Of a stretch of DNA of 64,000 nt, positions 1,781-52,710 are shown piece after piece. Source of the DNA: an uncultured cyanobacterium (GTDB lineage: Bacteria; Cyanobacteriota; Cyanobacteriia; PCC-6307; Cyanobiaceae). Under the pieces are notes generated by a model, which was given only the letters and a program-made list of their open reading frames with translations, was not told where the DNA came from and made no database searches. The stretch is from NCBI GenBank assembly GCA_903917565.1, contig CAIXBB010000001.1:62001-126000 (forward strand). The letters run 5' to 3'. Position 1 is the first letter of the stretch, and each line of letters opens with the position of its first letter. The translations under genes were made by a program, and so were the position numbers.

Positions 1781-3061
1781 TCAGGCCCGCACCACCGGCA
1801 CATCGCTCAGCCGGGTGGTGGCGGCCCGGGACAGGCGCGAGCGGCGCATCGTCCAGCGGGGCCGCAGGCCGCAGGCGGCCCACTGCACGGTGCCGCTGCC
1901 GTAGCGGCGGTTGAGACCGTCGACGGTGGCCATCAGGGCCTCGCGCCGCTGCTGCTGCTCCGGCGGTAGTGGGGCCAGCAGATGGTGCTGCAGCAGCGCG
2001 ATCGGCTTCAGATCCTGCAGCAGCACGCCCGCCTTCTGCAGCGGCTTGTGGGGCCGGAACAGCCGCTCGGCCAGGGGCAGGGCGGCGGCGAGCAGCACGG
2101 CGGTGTCGTTGCTGGGCAGCGGCAGAGCCACGGTGGCGGCGTTGGCGTAGAAGCGGGTGCCGTTGAAGGGGCTGCTGCGCACGAACACCGTGACGCTGCC
2201 CGCCCGCTGGCCCTGGCGGCGCAGCTTCTCGCAGGCCCGGCTGAGGTAGGTGGCGATCGCCTGCCGCAGGTCCTCGAGGCTGCTGACCGGTTCGCTGAAG
2301 CTCCGGCTGACGCAGGTTTCCTGCTTCGCCGGCGGCACGGCCACCAGGGGCAGGCAGCTGTGGCCGCGCAGTTCCTGCTGCAGGCGCACCCCCACGACGC
2401 CACAGCGATGCCGCAGTTCGCCGCTCGGCATGTCCCGCAGGGCCCGGGCGTGGCCGATGCCCCGCAACCGGCACCAGCGGGACAGCTTGCGGCCGATGCC
2501 CCAGACGTCCTCGATGGCGATGGCCTCCAGCCAGGGGCCCGGATCACCCACCTGGCCCAGGTCGAACACGCCGCCATGGGAGGGGTCGCGCTTGGCGATG
2601 CGGTTGGCGATCTTGGCCAGCACCTTGGTGGGGGCGATTCCCACCGCCACCGGCAGGCCCAGCTGGCGGCGCACCTGCTGGCGCAGGTCTTTGCCCCAGG
2701 CGGTGAGGTCGCCGTCGCCGGGCGGGCGGTGCAGGCGACCGAAGGCCTCGTCGATGGAATAGATCTCCAGTTCCTCCACCCAGGCTTCGAGGCTGGCCAT
2801 CAGCCGCTGGCTCATGTCGGCGTAGAGGCCGTAGTTGGAACTGCGCACGATCACGCCGCGGCGTTCCAGGTCGTGGCGCACCTGGAACCAGGGGGTGCCC
2901 ATGGGAATGCCCATGGCGCGGGCCTCGGCGCTGCGGGAGACGATGCAACCATCGTTGTTGGAGAGCACCACCAGGGGCTTCCCGATCACGGAGGGGTCAA
3001 GGGCCGCTTCGCAGGAGGCGTAGAAGTTGTTGCCGTCGACCAGGACGGTGGCCTGGCTCAT
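1781..3061 (-). CDS. umuC: Translesion DNA polymerase V subunit UmuC
   Basis: This Y-family polymerase has 426 residues, the normal length for UmuC. The catalytic carboxylates are visible: D9 in LVDGNNFYAS and D104/E105 in SIDEAF. The helix-hairpin-helix region (VWGIGRKLSRW) and a C-terminal little-finger domain follow. It copies past DNA lesions during the SOS response together with UmuD'. I chose the ATG at 3061 because it overlaps the TGA of umuD as ATGA. The same frame stays open upstream, but that stretch is umuD sequence in another frame. Translation is probably coupled to umuD, and transcription should start at the LexA-like box upstream of umuD. Confidence 0.95.
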   Translation of the reverse strand: MSQATVLVDGNNFYASCEAALDPSVIGKPLVVLSNNDGCIVSRSAEARAMGIPMGTPWFQVRHDLERRGVIVRSSNYGLYADMSQRLMASLEAWVEELEIYSIDEAFGRLHRPPGDGDLTAWGKDLRQQVRRQLGLPVAVGIAPTKVLAKIANRIAKRDPSHGGVFDLGQVGDPGPWLEAIAIEDVWGIGRKLSRWCRLRGIGHARALRDMPSGELRHRCGVVGVRLQQELRGHSCLPLVAVPPAKQETCVSRSFSEPVSSLEDLRQAIATYLSRACEKLRRQGQRAGSVTVFVRSSPFNGTRFYANAATVALPLPSNDTAVLLAAALPLAERLFRPHKPLQKAGVLLQDLKPIALLQHHLLAPLPPEQQQRREALMATVDGLNRRYGSGTVQWAACGLRPRWTMRRSRLSRAATTRLSDVPVVRA

Positions 3062-3408
3062 CGGCCCCCCGGCAGCGAACGGATCACGTGCAGGGCCACG
3101 CCCCAGAGGCGGTCGTCGTCGCTGCCGCCGAGGGCCAGGGGCGGGTAGGCGGGGTTGGCCGGCTCCAGCCACCAGAGCGCCCCCCGCCGCACCAGGCGCT
3201 TGACGGTGAATCCCCCCTCCAGCAGGGCCACCACGATGCGGCCGGACCGGGGGGCAGCCCCCCGATCCACGACGAGCAGATCGCCGTGGCGGATGCCGGC
3301 ACCGAGCATGGAGTCGCCGCAGACGCGCAGCAGCAGGGTGCGGCCGGGGTGGAGGTTCAGCTGTTCGTTGAGGTCGACCCCCATCCCGGCCCGGGCAAGA
3401 GTCCTCAC
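3058..3408 (-). CDS. umuD: UmuD-like S24 peptidase, N-terminally short (UmuD'-like)
   Basis: The protein has at most 116 residues and matches the C-terminal catalytic domain of UmuD/LexA. It carries the Ser of RVCGDSMLGAGI and the Lys of FTVKRLV, the Ser-Lys dyad of S24 peptidases. It begins at a point matching roughly residue 36 of E. coli UmuD (DLNEQLNLHPG). The N-terminal arm with the Cys-Gly or Ala-Gly self-cleavage site is therefore absent. GTG at 3408 or ATG at 3384 could be the start; neither recovers the arm, and the codons upstream do not resemble UmuD. The product would be equivalent to processed UmuD'. Its stop overlaps the start of umuC. Confidence 0.88.
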   Translation of the reverse strand: MRTLARAGMGVDLNEQLNLHPGRTLLLRVCGDSMLGAGIRHGDLLVVDRGAAPRSGRIVVALLEGGFTVKRLVRRGALWWLEPANPAYPPLALGGSDDDRLWGVALHVIRSLPGGR

Positions 3409-4573: not shown

Positions 4574-6181
4574 ATGACCGAGGGCATCGCCGGCGACGCA
4601 GGGGAGAGGCCAGGGGCCGCAGCGATCGGGAGCCTGCTGGAGAGGATCGACAGGCCTGCGGCCCTGGCCGATAGCCAGGGGGCGATCGTGGCGGCTAATG
4701 GGGCGTTCTGCAGCCGTTCGGGGCTGGAACTGGCGGCGTTGCGCCAGCGGGGCCTGCAGGAGCTCTGCGCCGCCGACGTGGCGCCGCTGCTGCAAGGTGC
4801 CGTGGCGACCCTGAGCAGTGAACTGGTCGGCTCCCCGCAGGCCGATGGGGTGATTCCCCTGTCCCTCACCGGCCTGCCGGCCAGCAACGGGACGGAGCCG
4901 GTCTGGTGCCTGCTGGAGCTGCTCGACCAGCGGGTGACCCTGGAGGACCTGGACGACCTGGTGACGGCCCGCTACGCGGACGGCGCCGTGCTGCTGCATC
5001 TGCAGGTGCTGCAGCTCGACCTGGTGCGTGGCCGGCTGGGCATCGCCGCCTGCGAGGCCCTGATCGAGGAGATCGCCCATCGGCTGGAGGCGGCGCTTCC
5101 GGCCGGGGGCTTCTTCTCCCGCCAGGGGGGCGACCGCCTGCTGGCCCTGCTGCCTGGCGCGATGGGCATCGATGCGGTGCGGGACATGGCCGGCGCCCTG
5201 CTCGGCTGCCTGGAGACACCCACCACGGTGCTGGAGCACGTCATCGAGCCGTCGCTGAACGTCGGCATCAGCCGCGCTCCGAACGACGGCAACGAGTTCG
5301 CGGTGCTTCTGGAGGCCGCCACCCGGGCCCTGGAGGAAACCCATCGCCAGCCGTTCCCCAGCTGCAGCATCGCTTCGCCGGTGGAGCGCTCCGTCCAGCT
5401 GCAGGAACTGCTGGCCCGTCCGCTGGCCCTGGCGATCGAGCAGGAGCAGTTGGAGCTGGCCTATCTGCCGATCATCGAGCTGGAATCCGGCCGTGTGGTC
5501 GCCGCCGAGGTGCTCTGCCGCTGGGATGATCCGGTGCTCGGCCGCCAGTCCCCCGCCGACTTCATCGACGTGGCCGAAGCCACGGCACAGATCTCGTCTT
5601 TGGGGCGCTGGGTGATGGAGCGGGCGTTTGAGGCCCTGCATCGCTGGGACGTGGCCGGGCTGCAGCTGGGCAAGATCTGCGTCAACGTCTCACCCCTTCA
5701 GGTGCAGGATCCCACCTGGAGCAGCGACCTGCTGCTGGCACTGGAACGGCACCAGCTGACCCCCGATCGCATCGTCCTTGAGCTCACCGAGGGCAGCATC
5801 CTGGAGATGTCGAACCACGTCGCCAACCAGCTGCGGGACCTCAGGCGGCAGGGGTTCGAGCTGGCCATGGATGATTTCGGCACCGGCTACTCCGGCTTGC
5901 AGCGGCTCACCGAGCTGCCCTTCAGCGAAGTGAAGATCGACAGGAGCCTGATCTCCGCCATCGACTACGACCAGTTGCAGCAGGCCATGCTCAGTGCCGT
6001 GATCCGGCTCAGCGACGCCACCGGAATCATGGTGGTGGTGGAGGGGGTGGAACGCTCCCGGCAGCGGCAGATGCTGCTCACCCTCGGTTGCCGCCACGGC
6101 CAGGGCTACCAGCTGTCGGCACCCCTTTCTGATCTGGAGCTGGAGGCCCTGCTCCAGAGCCAGATCACTCCAGAGGCCTGA
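4574..6181 (+). CDS. PAS-like / degenerate GGDEF / EAL phosphodiesterase
   Basis: The protein has 535 residues from the ATG at 4574. Residues ~20-70 look like a PAS sensor (AALADSQGAIVAANGAF). Residues ~135-260 form a decayed GGDEF module with GGDRL at 185-189. Residues ~280-535 form an EAL domain. The key EAL residues look present: E312 in EVL, N371 in NVSPLQ, E403/E406 in ELTE, D433/D434 in DDFGTGYSGL, K454 in KIDRSLI, E490 in VEGVE and Q510 in HGQGYQL. Cyclic-di-GMP hydrolysis is therefore plausible and synthesis is not. There is no membrane segment. A GTG at 4553 is an alternative start. Confidence 0.9.
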   Translation: MTEGIAGDAGERPGAAAIGSLLERIDRPAALADSQGAIVAANGAFCSRSGLELAALRQRGLQELCAADVAPLLQGAVATLSSELVGSPQADGVIPLSLTGLPASNGTEPVWCLLELLDQRVTLEDLDDLVTARYADGAVLLHLQVLQLDLVRGRLGIAACEALIEEIAHRLEAALPAGGFFSRQGGDRLLALLPGAMGIDAVRDMAGALLGCLETPTTVLEHVIEPSLNVGISRAPNDGNEFAVLLEAATRALEETHRQPFPSCSIASPVERSVQLQELLARPLALAIEQEQLELAYLPIIELESGRVVAAEVLCRWDDPVLGRQSPADFIDVAEATAQISSLGRWVMERAFEALHRWDVAGLQLGKICVNVSPLQVQDPTWSSDLLLALERHQLTPDRIVLELTEGSILEMSNHVANQLRDLRRQGFELAMDDFGTGYSGLQRLTELPFSEVKIDRSLISAIDYDQLQQAMLSAVIRLSDATGIMVVVEGVERSRQRQMLLTLGCRHGQGYQLSAPLSDLELEALLQSQITPEA

Positions 6182-6195
6182 GCCGTCCCGGCAGG

Positions 6196-6690
6196 ATGCC
6201 CTTGATTGTCCCGCTGCTGCTGTCCGTGGATGTGGGGGATGGGCGCTCCGTGGCCGGCCTCTCCAAGGCGATCCAGCTGTCGGTGGCCCCGGTGTTCCTG
6301 TTCACCGGCGTCACCGGGCTGCTGAGCCTGTTCTGCTCCCGGCTGGCCAGGATCATCGATCGCACCCGCGTCATTCAGGAGGCCCTGGCCAAGAGCCGGG
6401 CCAAGGAGGAGGCCGACGTGGAGGACGGGGAGCGGCTGGAGCAGGTGCTGGTGGTCCAGCGGCGTCGCACCTTCCTGATCAACCGGGCGATCCTGGCGGT
6501 CACCGTCACGGCCCTGATGGTGGCCGCCGTGGTGGCGGTGCTCTTCATCAGCGCGGTGGCGGCCCTGGACGTGACCGCCATCGTGGTGCCCCTGTTCGTG
6601 GCGGCCATGGGGGCCATGATCGTGGGCCTGGTGCTGTTCCTGCTGGAGGTGCAGCTGGCCATCAGCCAGAACCCCCGCCGGTATTACTGA
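6196..6690 (+). CDS. DUF2721 family membrane protein
   Basis: The protein has 164 residues with three hydrophobic segments: residues ~25-45 (the region of SVAPVFLFTGVTGLLSLF), ~95-118 and ~122-150. A conserved cytoplasmic stretch RLARIIDRTRVIQEAL follows the first. This arrangement is typical of DUF2721, a widespread bacterial inner-membrane family without known role. It starts 14 bases after the EAL gene on the same strand, so the two may be cotranscribed. The start at 6196 follows GGCAGG, a modest ribosome-binding site. Confidence 0.8.
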   Translation: MPLIVPLLLSVDVGDGRSVAGLSKAIQLSVAPVFLFTGVTGLLSLFCSRLARIIDRTRVIQEALAKSRAKEEADVEDGERLEQVLVVQRRRTFLINRAILAVTVTALMVAAVVAVLFISAVAALDVTAIVVPLFVAAMGAMIVGLVLFLLEVQLAISQNPRRYY

Positions 6691-7539: not shown

Positions 7540-8409
7540 ATGACCTTCAGCGGCCACCGGGCCCGCAAACGCTTCGGGCAGCACTGGCTCACGGATCCCC
7601 TGATCCTCGATCGGATCGTGGCGGCCGCCGACCTGCACGGCGCCGACCATGTGCTGGAGGTGGGCCCGGGGCGGGGCGCCCTGACCGAGCGCTTGCTGGC
7701 GTCCCAGGCGGCGTCACTGCTGGCGGTGGAACTGGACCGGGATCTGGTGGTGGGCCTGCGGCAGCGGTTCGGCGGCGATGGGCGCTTCACCCTGATCGAG
7801 GGTGACGTGCTCGAGCTGGCCTTGCCCTGCTCCGAGCGGCCGCTTCCCACAAAGGTGGTCGCCAACATCCCGTACAACATCACAGGCCCGTTGCTGGAGG
7901 TGCTGGTGGGCCGTCTTGGCCGGCCGGCCCCCTGCCGCTTCGAGCGGCTGGTGCTGCTGGTGCAGCAGGAGGTGGGCCAGCGCATCCGGGCCCGGCCGGG
8001 CAGCAGCGCCTTCTCGGCCCTCAGCGTGCGGATGCAGTTGCTGGCCCGTTGCAGCAGCGTCTGCACGGTGCCGCCCCGCTGCTTCTCGCCACCGCCGAAG
8101 GTCACCTCGGAGGTGATCGTGATCGAACCTGTGGCGGCGACGGCCCTGCCACCGCTGGAGCAGGCCCTGGCGGTGGAGGGCCTGCTGAGGCGCTGTTTCG
8201 CCGGACGGCGCAAGATGCTGCGCACCAGCCTGGCGGGCCTGCTGCCGGCGCCGGCCCTTCTGGAGCTGGCTGCCGCCGCTGGCGTGGACCTGCAGCAGCG
8301 GCCCCAGGAGCTCGGCCCCGATCGCTGGATGGCCCTGGCCCGCTCCCTGATGCTCGTGGGCGGGGTCGCTCAGGGAGAGGGGGAGGTGAACCAGACGCTG
8401 CAGCGGTAG
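7540..8409 (+). CDS. rsmA: 16S rRNA (adenine1518-N6/adenine1519-N6)-dimethyltransferase
   Basis: RsmA/KsgA dimethylates two adjacent adenines near the 3' end of 16S rRNA late in 30S assembly, using S-adenosylmethionine. The protein has 289 residues. It shows RKRFGQHWL at the N-terminus, SAM motif I EVGPGRGALTERLL, ELD of motif II and catalytic NIPYNI of motif IV, then the usual C-terminal helical domain. In many cyanobacteria ispE follows directly. Here ~1.8 kb of minus-strand genes lie between them. The last 40 bases overlap the 3' end of the convergent caspase-like gene. Confidence 0.95.
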   Translation: MTFSGHRARKRFGQHWLTDPLILDRIVAAADLHGADHVLEVGPGRGALTERLLASQAASLLAVELDRDLVVGLRQRFGGDGRFTLIEGDVLELALPCSERPLPTKVVANIPYNITGPLLEVLVGRLGRPAPCRFERLVLLVQQEVGQRIRARPGSSAFSALSVRMQLLARCSSVCTVPPRCFSPPPKVTSEVIVIEPVAATALPPLEQALAVEGLLRRCFAGRRKMLRTSLAGLLPAPALLELAAAAGVDLQQRPQELGPDRWMALARSLMLVGGVAQGEGEVNQTLQR

Positions 8410-45897: not shown

Positions 45898-46004
45898 GCG
45901 GAAGGGTTGATTGATCGAAACTAGCGAACAGGACGTGTCGGCCTGGCGGCGCCCCTGGCGATCTCCCTCCTTTGCATACAGTCGCGTCCTGCCCGCTCCC
46001 CTGT

Positions 46005-48170
46005 ATGGCCACCTTTCTTCTGGAGATCGGAACCGAGGAACTGCCGGCCGATTTCGTGCGCCTGGCCCAGCCCCAGCTGGAGGCGATCGTGGCCAGGGAT
46101 CTGCAGGAGGCCCGCCTGAGCTGGGACAGCCTCAGGGCCAGCGGCACCCCCCGCCGGCTGGCCATCACCGTCGCCGGACTGCCCGAGCGGCAGCAGGATC
46201 TGATCGAAGACCGCAAGGGCCCCCCGGCCCAGCAGGCGTTCCGCGATGGCCAGCCCACCCAGGCCGCCCTGGGCTTCGCCCGCCGCTGCGGCTGCGCGCC
46301 GGAGCAGCTGGAGATCCGCGATACCGACAAGGGCCCTTTCGTGTTCGCCCGCACCACCGAGGCCGGCCGCTTCGCCGAGGAGGTGCTGGCCGGCTGCATC
46401 CCCGGCTGGATCCGCTCCCTGCAGGGGCGACGCTTCATGCGCTGGGGGGACGGGGACGGCCGCTTCAGCCGGCCCCTGCGCTGGCTGGTGGCGCTGCTGG
46501 ATGGGGCGGTGGTTCCGGTGCAGCTCACCGATGTGGATCCACCCCTGGCCAGTGACCGCCTCAGCCGCGGACACCGGCTCCATCAAGGGGTGGTGGTGAT
46601 CCCCACCGCCGGGGCCTATGCGGCGACCCTGGAGGAGGCCGATGTGCAGGTCGACCGGGAGGCCAGGGGCCAGACGATCCGCCGTGACCTGGAGGCGGCA
46701 GCAACGCGCGCGGGAGCCGAGCTGGATCTGCCCGAGGCCCTGTTCGACGAGTTGGTCGACCTGGTGGAGTCCCCCCGGTTGATCGAAGGCAGCATCGACG
46801 CCGTCTATCTCGCCCTGCCCCCGGAGGTGCTCAGCACGGTGATGCGTTCCCACCAGCGCTACGTGCCCCTGCGCTTCCCGGAAGCCTCGGGCGATCCCCT
46901 GGCCCTGGTGGCGGAGGAGGTGCTGATGCCGCGCTTCCTGTGCATCTCCAATGGCCTTGCCTCCGCCGCCGACACGATTCAGCGCGGCAACGAGCGGGTG
47001 CTGCGGGCGCGGCTGGCGGACGCGGCCTTCTTCCTGGCGGCGGATCGCCGTCAGAGCAGCGCCGGGCGGGTGGAGGCCCTCGAGCGGGTCACCTTCGCCG
47101 AGGGATTGGGTAGCCTGGCCGATCGCTGCCGGCGTCTCTCCTGGCTGGCGGATCTGCTCTGCAGCAGCCTTGGGATCGCTGAGGAGGTCGCCACCGCTGT
47201 GCGCCGGGCCGCCCCCCTCTGCAAGCACGACCTGGTCAGCCAGATGGTGGGGGAATTCCCGGAGCTGCAGGGGATCATGGGGGCCAAGTACCTGCTGGCG
47301 GAGGGGGAAACCCGCGCCGTGGCCCTGGCGGTGCTGGAGCACTACCAGCCCCGCGGGGCCGGTGATGCCCTGCCGGGTTCGGAGGCGGGGGCCCTGCTGG
47401 CCCTGGCCGAGCGCCTGGAGCTGCTGCTCAGCATCTTCGCCAGGGGGGAACGGCCCAGCGGCTCCTCCGATCCCTATGCTCTGCGCCGGGCCGGCAACGG
47501 CGTGCTGCAGATCCTCTGGGATCGGGGCTGGTCGCTCGACCTGGTGGCACTGCTGGCCGAGGCGACGGCCCATTGGCAGGGGCTGCTGCCCGCCCTGGAG
47601 ATCCAGCCACCGGCCCTGGCGGCCGACCTGCTGGATGTCCTGCGTCAGCGCCTCGCCAGCCTGCTGGAGGAGGAGGGCTCTAGCGTCGATCTGGTCCAGG
47701 CGGTGGCTGGCGACGGCGTCTCCCTGGAGCGCCTGTTGCGGGATCCGGCCGATGCCCGGGCCCGGGTTGAGCTGCTGCGGCGTCTTCGGGCAGAGGAGCG
47801 TCTGCCCCTGCTGCAGGCGGTGGTGCAACGGGCCTCCCGCCTGGCCGAACACGCCGATCTGGCCGCCGACGTGCTCAGCCCTGCCGGGGTGGTGGATCCG
47901 GACCTTTTCACCTCGCCCAGTGAGGCCGCCGTGCTGTCGGTGCTGGAGACCTTGGCGGTGCATGCCGCCGCCAACGGAACGGCCCGCTACGAACCCCTCG
48001 CCCGCCTGCTGGGGGAGAGCGGTGCCACCCTGGCGGCCTTCTTCGATGGCGACGACAGCGTCATGGTGATGTGCGACCAGCCCCAGGTGCGCCGCAACCG
48101 ACTGCGGCTGCTCGCCGTTCTGCGCAACCAGGCCGCCGTGCTCGCTGACTTCGCCCGCCTGGGCGGTTGA
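46005..48170 (+). CDS. glyS: Glycyl-tRNA synthetase beta subunit
   Basis: The beta subunit of the alpha2beta2 enzyme binds tRNA-Gly and carries HD-like and anticodon-binding domains. The 721-residue protein starts ATFLLEIGTEELPADFVRLA and includes MRSHQRYVPLRF, CISNGLASAADTIQRGNERV, RVTFAEGLGSLADRCRRLSW, MGAKYLLAEGETRAVALAVL and SGSSDPYALRRAGNGVLQIL, all characteristic. ATG 46005 gives the standard N-terminus. glyQ is not in the window, as is common in cyanobacteria. Confidence 0.97.
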   Translation: MATFLLEIGTEELPADFVRLAQPQLEAIVARDLQEARLSWDSLRASGTPRRLAITVAGLPERQQDLIEDRKGPPAQQAFRDGQPTQAALGFARRCGCAPEQLEIRDTDKGPFVFARTTEAGRFAEEVLAGCIPGWIRSLQGRRFMRWGDGDGRFSRPLRWLVALLDGAVVPVQLTDVDPPLASDRLSRGHRLHQGVVVIPTAGAYAATLEEADVQVDREARGQTIRRDLEAAATRAGAELDLPEALFDELVDLVESPRLIEGSIDAVYLALPPEVLSTVMRSHQRYVPLRFPEASGDPLALVAEEVLMPRFLCISNGLASAADTIQRGNERVLRARLADAAFFLAADRRQSSAGRVEALERVTFAEGLGSLADRCRRLSWLADLLCSSLGIAEEVATAVRRAAPLCKHDLVSQMVGEFPELQGIMGAKYLLAEGETRAVALAVLEHYQPRGAGDALPGSEAGALLALAERLELLLSIFARGERPSGSSDPYALRRAGNGVLQILWDRGWSLDLVALLAEATAHWQGLLPALEIQPPALAADLLDVLRQRLASLLEEEGSSVDLVQAVAGDGVSLERLLRDPADARARVELLRRLRAEERLPLLQAVVQRASRLAEHADLAADVLSPAGVVDPDLFTSPSEAAVLSVLETLAVHAAANGTARYEPLARLLGESGATLAAFFDGDDSVMVMCDQPQVRRNRLRLLAVLRNQAAVLADFARLGG

Positions 48171-48205: not shown

Positions 48206-49303
48206 TCACTCCAGCAGGGCCACTTCGATACAGAGGCCGGGTCCGAAGGCCATGGCCAGGCAGGGCCCTGCAGCACCGCTGCGCCGCAACCGCTCGAGGA
48301 TGAACAGCAGGGTCGGGGACGACATGTTGCCGTAGTCCCGCAGCACGGAGCGCGAGGGTTCGATCAGCTGTGGATCGAGCCCAAGGCTCTTCGTGACAGC
48401 CGAGAGGATCCGGGGTCCACCGGGGTGGACCGCCCAGCAGCCGATGGCGGTGAGGGTGAGGTTGTGGGAGGCCAGCCACCCCTCCAGCCAGGGCCGCAGA
48501 TGCTCGCCGATCAGATCAGGTACCTGCGGGGACAGCCCCATGGCGAAACCGTGGTCCCCGATCCCCCAGGACATGGCGTCACTGCTGGCGGGCACCAGCA
48601 GGGAGCCGCTGGCGATCAACCGCCCCAGCGGTGCCGTTGCCGGTGCCCCTTTCGCCAGAAGCTCTCCCGTGGCCACCAGGGCAGCGGCGCCATCGGCGAA
48701 CAGGGCATTGGCCACGATCCGCTCGGCCTCCCAGCCGTACTGGAGATGGAGGCTGCAGAGCTCCACGGCGCAGAGCAGCACGCAGGCCTCCGGTTCGGCA
48801 CCGGCGAACCCGGCGGCGACCCTCAGACCATTGAGAGCCCCGTGGCAGCCCATGAATCCCACGTGGGTGCGGGCCAGGCCGGCGCCCATCGGCAGGGCGG
48901 CCATCAGGGCGAGATCGACGCCGGGGGCCTGGAAGCCGCTGCAGGAGACCGTGACCAGATGGGTGATCCGCTCCGGCGGCAGCTGGGCCTGCTCGAGGGC
49001 TGCCTGGACGGCCCGCAGCGCCAGGGGTGGCGCTTCGCGGGCATAGCGACGCATCCGCTCCCCGGTGCCGGGGCTGGTGGCTCCGAAGAAGGTTTGTCTG
49101 GGGTCGCTGCCGGGGGGCTGGAGCAGCACGCTGTGGCGGCTGGCGACGCCCGAGCGGCGATGCAGGGTCTCGAGCAGCCGGCGCTGGCCGTGAGAGGGGA
49201 TCTGGTGGGGCAGGGCCACCTGGGCAGCGATGGCGGCGGCATCGCCCTGGGCGATGCGCTGGGGAGGCAGGGCCGTTCCCAGCCCCTGGATGGTCAGGGA
49301 CAT
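48206..49303 (-). CDS. Type III polyketide synthase (chalcone synthase-like)
   Basis: The 365-residue thiolase-fold enzyme has the full type III PKS triad: Cys153 (GFMGCHGALNG), His293 (AVHPGGPRIL) and Asn326 (DYGNMSSPTLLFIL). The C-terminal loop GPGL is present (AFGPGLCIEVALLE). Such enzymes extend an acyl-CoA starter with malonyl-CoA to pyrones, resorcinols or phloroglucinols. Starter and chain length cannot be read from sequence. It is the last gene of a three-gene operon with a flavoprotein and a methyltransferase, overlapping the flavoprotein gene by 10 bases. Confidence 0.93.
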   Translation of the reverse strand: MSLTIQGLGTALPPQRIAQGDAAAIAAQVALPHQIPSHGQRRLLETLHRRSGVASRHSVLLQPPGSDPRQTFFGATSPGTGERMRRYAREAPPLALRAVQAALEQAQLPPERITHLVTVSCSGFQAPGVDLALMAALPMGAGLARTHVGFMGCHGALNGLRVAAGFAGAEPEACVLLCAVELCSLHLQYGWEAERIVANALFADGAAALVATGELLAKGAPATAPLGRLIASGSLLVPASSDAMSWGIGDHGFAMGLSPQVPDLIGEHLRPWLEGWLASHNLTLTAIGCWAVHPGGPRILSAVTKSLGLDPQLIEPSRSVLRDYGNMSSPTLLFILERLRRSGAAGPCLAMAFGPGLCIEVALLE

Positions 49304-50448
49304 GGCTCGGGGACCGGCGGGTTCAGGCTGGTGCCATCGAAGGGGTGCAGGAGGGGGGCGGCCAGGATCGGCCAGCGCTCCACCGCCGCCAGAAGACAGC
49401 GGCTGAGGCCAGGGCGGCGCAGGGCGAAGGCCAGGCCATGGCAGAGGCGTTGGCGTGATCCGATCAGGTGGGCGTGCCGGCGGACCCACTGCCGCTCAAG
49501 CTCCCTGCTCCACTGGCGTTGGCCCTGCAGCACCAGCGGCACCGTCGCCAGAGCCCCCAGCAGGGCCCATCCCATGCCCTCCCCCGTGAAGGGTTCGACG
49601 TACCCGGCGGCGTCCCCCAGCAACAGCAGCCGTGCAGACGCCGGCGGCCAACGGCGGACGGTGAGGGCCGAGGTGGCCATCCAGGCGGCAGCGGACGCCT
49701 GGGGGACGGGCTCGAACCCGGCCTCCGCCAGCACGCCCGCGGCAGCGAGCGCCGCTCCTCCCGCCTGGATCAGATGGGCCCGGTCGAAGGCCGCCGCCAG
49801 GTTGAGATCTCCGGCTTCGGTGCGCACCAGCCCGACATAACCGTGCCGGCCGATCGCCATGTGGATGGTGCCCCTCCCATAGCCGCTGGCGCTGACGCCC
49901 ACGCGGCAACCGGCACCAACTCTGGAGTGCGCCTGGACCCGACTCCGGATCCCGATGGCAGGGGTCAGGCCCGGGCTACCCAGCCCGGTCGCCACCAGCA
50001 CCACCCGGGCGCTGGTGGTTTCAGGCGTGGCGCCGCAGCGCAGCCTCACCTGCCGGCCGCCAGGGCAAAGGCCAGCCACCGTGGCCTCGGTATCCATCCG
50101 AAACACCGTTCCTTCGGCCACCGCGGCCTCGCAGAGGGCCAGGTCGAGGCAGCCCCGGGAGAGGGACTGGCCCAGGGGCAACGCCAGCTCCGTCTGATGG
50201 TTCTGCAGGCCCAGACGGAGCCGCACCAGGGGCACACCGCCGAGGCGTTCCACCAGGCCCGACAGGCCGGCCTGCGCCAGCGCCCCGAGGGCCACCCCGT
50301 TGAGACAGGTGCCACAGACCTTCCAGCGGGGAAAGGCCCGCTTGTCCACCATCAGCACCCGCAGCCGCTGCCTGGACAGCTGGTGGGCCGCCAGGGCACC
50401 GGCAGGCCCGGCCCCGAGCACGATCACATCCCACTCGGGTGGGCTCAT
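49294..50448 (-). CDS. FAD-dependent oxidoreductase of the type III PKS operon
   Basis: The 384-residue flavoprotein belongs to the geranylgeranyl-reductase/aromatic hydroxylase superfamily. It has the FAD-binding GxGxxG DVIVLGAGPAGALAAHQLSR, the KVCGTCLNGVAL region, and the second FAD motif LLLGDAAGYVEPFTGEGMGW. It may hydroxylate or reduce the polyketide made by the neighbouring synthase. ATG 50448 overlaps the methyltransferase stop. It differs clearly from ChlP at 52719, which belongs to the same superfamily, so it is not a chlP duplicate. Confidence 0.88.
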   Translation of the reverse strand: MSPPEWDVIVLGAGPAGALAAHQLSRQRLRVLMVDKRAFPRWKVCGTCLNGVALGALAQAGLSGLVERLGGVPLVRLRLGLQNHQTELALPLGQSLSRGCLDLALCEAAVAEGTVFRMDTEATVAGLCPGGRQVRLRCGATPETTSARVVLVATGLGSPGLTPAIGIRSRVQAHSRVGAGCRVGVSASGYGRGTIHMAIGRHGYVGLVRTEAGDLNLAAAFDRAHLIQAGGAALAAAGVLAEAGFEPVPQASAAAWMATSALTVRRWPPASARLLLLGDAAGYVEPFTGEGMGWALLGALATVPLVLQGQRQWSRELERQWVRRHAHLIGSRQRLCHGLAFALRRPGLSRCLLAAVERWPILAAPLLHPFDGTSLNPPVPEPCP

Positions 50449-51182
50449 GGGGCCTGAAGCCCGCCGACAGGACGACGCCAGCTGAGCAGGAACCGCTCGG
50501 GCCAGCTGCGCCGCACGCGGGCCCCGCCGAGGCCGGCCCGGGCTGCCAGATCCAGCGCCTCGTCCATGCGGAAGGCCCCTTGCACCGAAACGGGACCATC
50601 GAAATGAACGATCGGCGAGCGACTCAGCAGGCGACAACCCACCCACGCCAGTCCATAGCCCAGGGGACTGCGGATCAGGTCATTCACCAGCACCAGATGG
50701 CGGCTGCTCCGGCCCATGCGGCGGAGCAGTTCGACGGCGGCGTCTTCATCGAGATGATGCAGAAACAGACTGCAGACCATGACGTCGTAATCAGGCGGCA
50801 GGGGATCCTCCAGGGCATCGGCCTGGAAGAAGCTTCCGCCCAGAGGCCTGCCGGTGGCATGGCGGCTGGCCATGGCCACCGCCTGCTGGCTGCGATCGCA
50901 GCCGTCGATGTGCACGGCCAGTCCTTGGCTTCGGCAGCGTTCCGCCAGGGCGATGGTGTTGTCACCGCCACCGCAGGCCAGATCCAGAATCCGTAGGGGA
51001 CGGGAGAGTTCCAGTGCGACGGCCAGGGCCTGGATCTGGCTGAACAGGGACCCCGCCGCACCACTGAAGGCATTGATCCGGCGCAGACCGATGAGGGCTT
51101 GATCATGGGCAGCGGCGTCGATGCCGATCTGATCCATCCACTCAGGCTGTCGGTTCCGCTCGCCCAGGGGCTGCCAATGCAT
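50445..51182 (-). CDS. SAM-dependent methyltransferase of the type III PKS operon
   Basis: The 245-residue class I methyltransferase shows SAM motif I ILDLACGGGDNTIALAERC, acidic motif II HIDGCDRSQQAV, and YDVMVCSLFLHHLDEDAAVE (motif IV region). It is UbiE/arylamine-type, acting on small molecules. As first gene of the operon it may methylate the ring made by the type III PKS. ATG 51182 is used; the frame stays open to 51335 without homology-like content. It is divergent from the CNNM-type gene with ~208 bases between. Confidence 0.87.
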   Translation of the reverse strand: MHWQPLGERNRQPEWMDQIGIDAAAHDQALIGLRRINAFSGAAGSLFSQIQALAVALELSRPLRILDLACGGGDNTIALAERCRSQGLAVHIDGCDRSQQAVAMASRHATGRPLGGSFFQADALEDPLPPDYDVMVCSLFLHHLDEDAAVELLRRMGRSSRHLVLVNDLIRSPLGYGLAWVGCRLLSRSPIVHFDGPVSVQGAFRMDEALDLAARAGLGGARVRRSWPERFLLSWRRPVGGLQAP

Positions 51183-51390
51183 CGGGGAAGGTCGCTGGGG
51201 GTTGGGCAGATGGGCTGAGCTCGCGACTCCACCCGCAGGTTGATGGGAACGTCGTGTGAAGCAGATCCGTTGGACGGGGTGTCGCGGAAGGCTCCAGGGA
51301 AGGGGCACCCGGCCGTGAGCTTCAGCCGTCGTCACCTAACTTGTCCTTTGCATCCGTTCGCCGGCCGAGGGGCCATCACTGGAATTGCCG

Positions 51391-52710
51391 ATGCTTATCG
51401 ACGGTTTTCTGATAGTCCTTCTGATTCTGATCAACGGGATCTTTTCCGGTTCGGAGTTGGCCATGATGTCGGCTAGGAGATTGCGCCTTGAGCACCAGGC
51501 GGAGGCTGGGGACCCGAAGGCGGAAGTGGCTCTGAAACTAATCCGATCCCCCAACGATTTTCTCTCGACGGTGCAGATCGGCATCACATTGATCGGGATT
51601 CTAAGTGGCGCCCTGGGCGGCTCGCGGGTGGCCCAGTCCCTGCAACCAGTCCTGGAGGCGGTGCCCCCGTTGCGGGCCTGGGCCGAACCCCTTGCCCTGG
51701 GAATCGTGGTGACCGTGATCACCTTTCTTTCGCTGGTGCTGGGGGAGCTGGTGCCCAAGCGCATCGCCCTGAGTGACCCGGAGCGCATGGCCTGCCTCGT
51801 GGCGCCAGCCATGCGCACCCTGTCGCGCTGGATGGCCCCCCTGGCCCATCTGCTCGGCTCGTCCACCGATCAGCTGCTCAGCCTGATGGGCATCGGCGAG
51901 AGTGGTGAGCCGGAGATCACCGAAGACGAGATCAGGACCCTGCTGCGCAGGGGAACGGAATCAGGCCTGTTCGACGTGGCGGAGCACGCCATGGTGGAGC
52001 GGGTGTTTCGCCTGGCCGATCGGCCCGTCAAGGCGATCATGACCCCCCGCACCGACATCTGCTGGCTGGATCTCTCCGAATCCCCCCAGTCCCATCTCGA
52101 GCGGGTGATGGCGGCGAATCATTCCCTGTTTCCGGTGGCGCGCGCCAGCCTCGACGCCTGTGTGGGCGTGGTGCGTGCCCGCAGCTTTCTGGCCGCCCAG
52201 CTGGGCGAGGGGCCGCGGGAGATCGAGTCCTTCCTGCAACCGCCGTTGTACGTGGGCGAGAGCACCAGGGCCTTGAAGCTGATCGAGCAATTCAGATCCA
52301 GTGGGGTTCACATCGCTCTGGTGACCGATGAATTCGGCGGCATCGAGGGACTGGTGACCCTCAACGACATGATGGAAGCGATCGTCGGTGATCTTTCCTC
52401 TGCCAGGGACAAGGAAGACCCGATGATTGTTGTCCGACAGGATGGATCCTGGCTGCTCGATGGCGCCCTCGACATCGCTGACTTCAAGGACTTGGTCCAG
52501 AAAGGATGCCTGCCGGAGGAAGTCCGTGGGGGCTACCAGACCCTGGGCGGGTTCGTGATGCACCATCTCGAACACATTCCCACTTCCGGTGAGCTCTTCG
52601 AATGGGAAGACCTCCGCATCGAGGTGATGGACATGGATGGCAACCGGGTTGACAAGCTTCTGGTGACCCGCATCGAACCCCCTTCAGACCAACCCGAAAG
52701 GCCGGCCTGA
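51391..52710 (+). CDS. CNNM/CorC (HlyC/CorC) family membrane protein
   Basis: The 439-residue protein has an N-terminal DUF21 domain with three or four spans (LIDGFLIVLLILINGIFSGS and VVTVITFLSLVLGELVPKRI). Next come a CBS pair (ITEDEIRTLLRRGTESGLFD onward) and a C-terminal CorC domain (GYQTLGGFVMHHLEHIPTSG). CNNM proteins export magnesium or related cations. The specificity here is unknown. ATG 51391 is chosen; TTG 51385 is possible. It ends 8 bases before the stop of the convergent chlP. Confidence 0.92.
   Translation: MLIDGFLIVLLILINGIFSGSELAMMSARRLRLEHQAEAGDPKAEVALKLIRSPNDFLSTVQIGITLIGILSGALGGSRVAQSLQPVLEAVPPLRAWAEPLALGIVVTVITFLSLVLGELVPKRIALSDPERMACLVAPAMRTLSRWMAPLAHLLGSSTDQLLSLMGIGESGEPEITEDEIRTLLRRGTESGLFDVAEHAMVERVFRLADRPVKAIMTPRTDICWLDLSESPQSHLERVMAANHSLFPVARASLDACVGVVRARSFLAAQLGEGPREIESFLQPPLYVGESTRALKLIEQFRSSGVHIALVTDEFGGIEGLVTLNDMMEAIVGDLSSARDKEDPMIVVRQDGSWLLDGALDIADFKDLVQKGCLPEEVRGGYQTLGGFVMHHLEHIPTSGELFEWEDLRIEVMDMDGNRVDKLLVTRIEPPSDQPERPA

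Follow-up and report, generated by a model that had tools for sequence, protein, structure and literature searches.

A conserved, hierridin-like type III polyketide synthase operon in an uncultured picocyanobacterium

Operon layout

The window analysed here is a 64,000-nucleotide stretch of DNA from an uncultured member of the Cyanobiaceae. On its minus strand, at 48206-51182, lie three complete open reading frames encoding a methyltransferase (MT), an FAD-dependent oxidoreductase and a type III polyketide synthase (PKS), which bears out a sequence-only reading that had placed these functions in one operon of overlapping genes. The locus and its flanks are as follows:

45972..48170, plus strand: glyS, glycyl-tRNA synthetase beta chain; flanking gene that marks the conserved site
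48206..49303, minus strand: HidC-like type III PKS, 365 aa; gene 3 of the operon
49294..50448, minus strand: HidB-like FAD-dependent oxidoreductase (protein P0002), 384 aa; gene 2
50445..51182, minus strand: HidA-like class I SAM methyltransferase, 245 aa, ATG start; gene 1
51183..51384, no strand: gap of about 200 bp that separates the operon from the divergently oriented CBS-protein gene; likely promoter region
51385..52710, plus strand: hemolysin-type CBS-domain membrane protein; flanking gene, given for context

The MT and FAD genes overlap by 4 bp (ATGA) and the FAD and PKS genes by 10 bp, so the three very probably form a single transcription unit. A promoter and terminator scan detected nothing, roughly the chance expectation, with no sigma-70-like site in 51183..51384, and Rfam gave zero matches in the window. 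The names of glyS and the CBS-domain protein come from reading the proteins rather than from a family search. No second PKS copy was found in the window's own genome.

Conservation of the gene cluster

Scanning bacterial and archaeal genomes with the PKS yielded 80 loci, and the order MT, FAD, PKS on one strand recurred at 70 of these in six phyla (33 Cyanobacteriota, 24 Planctomycetota, 6 Hydrogenedentota, 5 Gemmatimonadota, 1 Acidobacteriota and 1 Elusimicrobiota). With the same order in so many loci from so many phyla, the three-gene grouping is not a matter of chance. The operon type thus extends to Hydrogenedentota, Gemmatimonadota, Acidobacteriota and Elusimicrobiota, almost all of them represented by metagenome bins. 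The other ten loci comprise five with the PKS alone (one of which, L068, starts just 139 bases ahead of the PKS), three with the FAD gene close to the contig start, one without the FAD gene (L075) and one with a split FAD match (L038). The split match, in a planctomycete at about 2008-3151, falls in two pieces and possibly reflects a frameshift or a sequencing error.

Among 201 genomes of the window's family, the PKS occurs in 69 and the MT in 62, with zero genomes carrying the MT and lacking the PKS. Leaving out the window's own, the MT lies within 2 kb of the PKS at 61 of 68 PKS places; the remaining seven are a deletion (G163), G059, G153 and four divergent PKSs. The operon is therefore accessory, being carried by about a third of the sampled family genomes and deleted in two congeners. 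Separate occurrence of the three genes in other genomes had been named in advance as what would count against the operon; that check was run, and both counts, across phyla and within the family, show the genes kept together. The four divergent type III PKSs (39-46% identity; G048, G083, G128 and G081), which have no nearby MT, probably belong to a different lineage.

A quick tree built from 81 synthases put the window's PKS in a 12-row cyanobacterial clade (SH-aLRT 100). The cyanobacterial rows as a whole formed one group, at an SH-aLRT of 75, which is not strong, with planctomycetes and other phyla beside it. Support was gauged by SH-aLRT only and several branches are long, leaving the deep order unsure, and we therefore make no claim on the direction of transfer between phyla.

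Genomic site, deletions and selection

Near relatives have the operon flanked by glyS and the CBS-protein gene, with chlP beyond. This site next to chlP is shared by the near relatives and genus g51 and was not seen in several other carriers; in G084, from another genus, the operon likewise lies between chlP and glyS. Neither glyS nor chlP was present within the fetched stretches of G102, G140, G101, G112, G054 and G045, so the operon is located elsewhere in these genomes.

Two members of the window's genus retain remnants at the site. In G163 (L087, G163:C5:298500-310500, about 5353-6213), the first codons of the MT are fused to the PKS from residue 101 onward and the FAD gene is gone; in G198 (L101, G198:C1:300000-316000, about 7933-8196), MT residues 1-32 and PKS residues about 284-336 are left. 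The PKS-side end points are unlike, most simply explained by two separate deletions, with one deletion followed by further loss as a less simple alternative. In three further congeners (G255, G274 and G256; L102, L103 and L104), glyS adjoins the CBS-protein gene with no detectable operon remnant.

The three operon genes are under purifying selection. Against four relatives, YN00 estimates of dN/dS, where computable, were 0.07-0.10 for the PKS, 0.11-0.19 for the FAD gene and 0.14-0.18 for the MT, and NG86 values were <0.37 for all three genes. Ratios well below 1 in intact operons show that the pathway is of use to the genomes that retain it. Within the genus most sampled genomes maintain the operon under purifying selection, but two members have lost it through in-place deletions with different end points, a pattern that fits an accessory lipid useful only in some settings. 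Recent foreign origin was considered and rejected: GC (0.67-0.73) and GC3 (0.76-0.86, lowest in the MT) are near those of neighbouring genes, and with the same site occupied in near relatives there is no sign of recent arrival.

Identity of the three enzymes

The PKS is a type III polyketide synthase, as it has both CHS/STS domains (Chal_sti_synt_N and Chal_sti_synt_C in Pfam, above cut-off at E 3e-20 and 6e-22) and a complete catalytic triad, Cys153-His293-Asn326, that is invariant in 27 homologues. It is 79-91% identical to its nearest relatives and about 50-63% identical to planctomycete enzymes and to the majority of the remaining picocyanobacterial ones, with values of 46-59% for the planctomycete loci found by our scan. 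Its best solved sequence relative is PKS18 of M. tuberculosis, a Cys of which aligns with Met255, itself invariant in the 27 homologues. At the residue corresponding to the gatekeeper Phe265 of chalcone synthase, HidC and its clade (3.2222) have a conserved Met, and the PKS18 clade has a Cys (Larsen et al. 2021, PMC8086630). Met255 matches the HidC clade at this position, which was placed through the PKS18 alignment and not through an alignment to chalcone synthase. This Met is not a mark of hierridin makers alone, since non-cyanobacterial homologues have it as well.

The MT is a class I SAM methyltransferase (PF13649, E 9e-15; NF004851, whose cut-off of 243 it misses with 225 bits). Its structural model (mean pLDDT 93.6) has as its nearest folds the small-molecule methyltransferases CysG(N-16), NovO, CouO and ChlM. 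Because NovO and CouO are C-methyltransferases and CysG(N-16) and ChlM are O-methyltransferases, the fold matches leave the choice between O- and C-methylation undecided. The window's MT shows 39-50% identity to MTs from non-cyanobacterial loci and 49-59% to picocyanobacterial MTs from beyond its own clade, values at which function cannot be securely transferred from Cyanobium sp. LEGE 06113, the source of the hidABC cluster.

The FAD enzyme is a geranylgeranyl-reductase-type flavoprotein (TIGR02032, E 9e-25, below the curated cut-off), scoring 88 bits against this superfamily and 28 bits against UbiH-type hydroxylases. The nearest folds to its AlphaFold2 model (mean pLDDT 89.8) are flavin halogenases (PltA, Bmp2, PltM, CndH and others) and phenol hydroxylases or related hydroxylases such as PqsL and p-nitrophenol monooxygenase.

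Comparison with known systems

The sequence-only reading took srsABC of Streptomyces griseus as its model, which, like the window, combines a type III PKS, a methyltransferase and a flavoprotein for modified alkylresorcinols. In srsABC, SrsB is an isoprenylcysteine-type methyltransferase, SrsC is UbiH-like and the gene order differs. The window's MT, a soluble class I SAM protein by PF13649 and by its model, is not an isoprenylcysteine-carboxyl-methyltransferase of the SrsB type, and in the published tree SrsA falls in PKS clade 2.22 and HidC in 3.2222 (PMC8086630). That reading's core, an operon for a modified phenolic lipid, is well supported; its choice of model is not, given the separate clade of SrsA and the stronger match of the FAD enzyme to TIGR02032 than to UbiH-type proteins. 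We regard srsABC as an analogue only; the closest known system is hidABC.

The hidABC genes of Cyanobium sp. LEGE 06113 encode a methyltransferase, an oxidoreductase and a type III PKS, in the more conserved of two orders (Larsen et al. 2021, PMC8086630), and have hierridin B as their known product (Costa et al. 2019, as described in PMC8086630 and PMC10896814). Hierridins are long-chain methylated phenols, and LEGE 06113, the one characterised cyanobacterial member, makes O-methylated hierridins (PMC8086630). The window resembles hidABC in its gene functions, MT-FAD-PKS order, picocyanobacterial host, catalytic triad and gatekeeper Met, a likeness drawn from published descriptions of hidA, hidB and hidC. 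Its three genes, adjacent, on the same strand and in this order, have the arrangement that defines a hierridin-like cluster, of which 47 were recorded in cyanobacteria, particularly Prochlorococcus and Synechococcus (Larsen et al. 2021, PMC8086630). The earlier statement that the cyanobacterial product is not known thus fails at the level of product class.

The same operon of MT, FAD enzyme and type III PKS is carried by 58 planctomycetes (PMC10896814). The window shares its gene order with the operons of Gimesia maris and Rhodopirellula baltica, whose MT seems to C-methylate, and planctomycete synthases expressed in C. glutamicum gave pentadecyl- and heptadecylresorcinols (PMC10896814). The window's operon is real, conserved and hierridin-like, and its pathway is not new: the finding adds a further member to a known pathway and moves the analogy from srsABC to hidABC.

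Proposed product and alternatives

From the HidC-clade Met, the gene order and the resorcinols of the planctomycete synthases, we read the window's operon as a pathway to a 5-alkylresorcinol, with oxidation and methylation to follow. With a probability of roughly 0.85 it is a hidABC-type alkylresorcinol operon leading to a hierridin-like methoxyphenol. Cys153 of the PKS would be loaded with the acyl thioester of a long chain (about C14-C18), which three malonyl-CoA extensions would lengthen; C2-C7 aldol condensation, with CO2 lost, would then close the ring to the 5-alkylresorcinol. The FAD enzyme would then add a ring oxygen, presumably by hydroxylation beside the alkyl chain, and the SAM methyltransferase would methylate ring oxygens, at positions that are likewise presumed, to yield the methoxyphenol. 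Two parts of this scheme, the kind of operon and the chemistry of the PKS, have the backing of homology and of expression work published on relatives; at which positions and in which order hydroxylation and methylation take place is what we infer.

Both O-methyl groups of hierridin B would have to come from a single MT, which speaks against a hierridin as product, and when the G. maris MT and FAD enzyme were expressed together, one extra methyl was added, probably on carbon (PMC10896814). With MT folds of both kinds as nearest matches, hierridin proper is not assured. The same operon type and alkylresorcinol core could instead serve an MT acting on a ring carbon and an FAD enzyme oxidising the ring; the C-methylated end product would then be an alkylresorcinol, a hydroquinone or a quinone and not a hierridin. 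We consider this possible but doubtful: the G. maris result, the presence of NovO and CouO among the nearest folds and the identity of the MT to those of other loci, too low for a secure transfer of function from LEGE 06113, speak for it, but CysG(N-16) and ChlM are just as close in fold, and the O-methylated hierridins of LEGE 06113 point the other way. Lactonisation by the PKS to alkylpyrones, in place of resorcinols, is improbable. Although PKS18, the best solved relative, is an alkylpyrone synthase according to PMC8086630, which also leaves pyrones possible for some Prochlorococcus enzymes, Met255 stands where the PKS18 clade has Cys, resorcinols were the products of planctomycete relatives that have this operon (PMC10896814), and the enzymes conserved beside the PKS, MT and FAD, are in keeping with a phenol ring.

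Chlorination of the ring by the FAD enzyme, as in hierridin C, we hold to be very improbable. Its best structural matches are flavin halogenases, including the phloroglucinol halogenase PltM, but hydroxylases match the model about equally well, and no Lys stands at columns 75 or 76 in any of 30 FAD homologues, the columns being placed approximately, by extending the alignment of the FAD enzyme to CndH. The placement uses what we take to be the number of the CndH active-site lysine. On its sequence the enzyme seems to lack the halogenase lysine, making hydroxylation more likely than halogenation, and a halogenase role was rejected on this approximate placement.

The hierridin-like methoxyphenol remains our preferred product. 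A speculative and rather unlikely variant is that the Cyanobium/Synechococcus/Aphanothece clade makes something other than hierridin B, such as a C-methylated alkylhydroquinone or a quinone lipid, with the conserved FAD-enzyme cysteines C45, C48 and C336 taking part in an undescribed reaction. Among FAD homologues Cys45 and Cys336 are invariant and Cys48 is nearly so. A divergent FAD oxidoreductase, 36% identical, is present in a congener at G267:C75:45333-46424.
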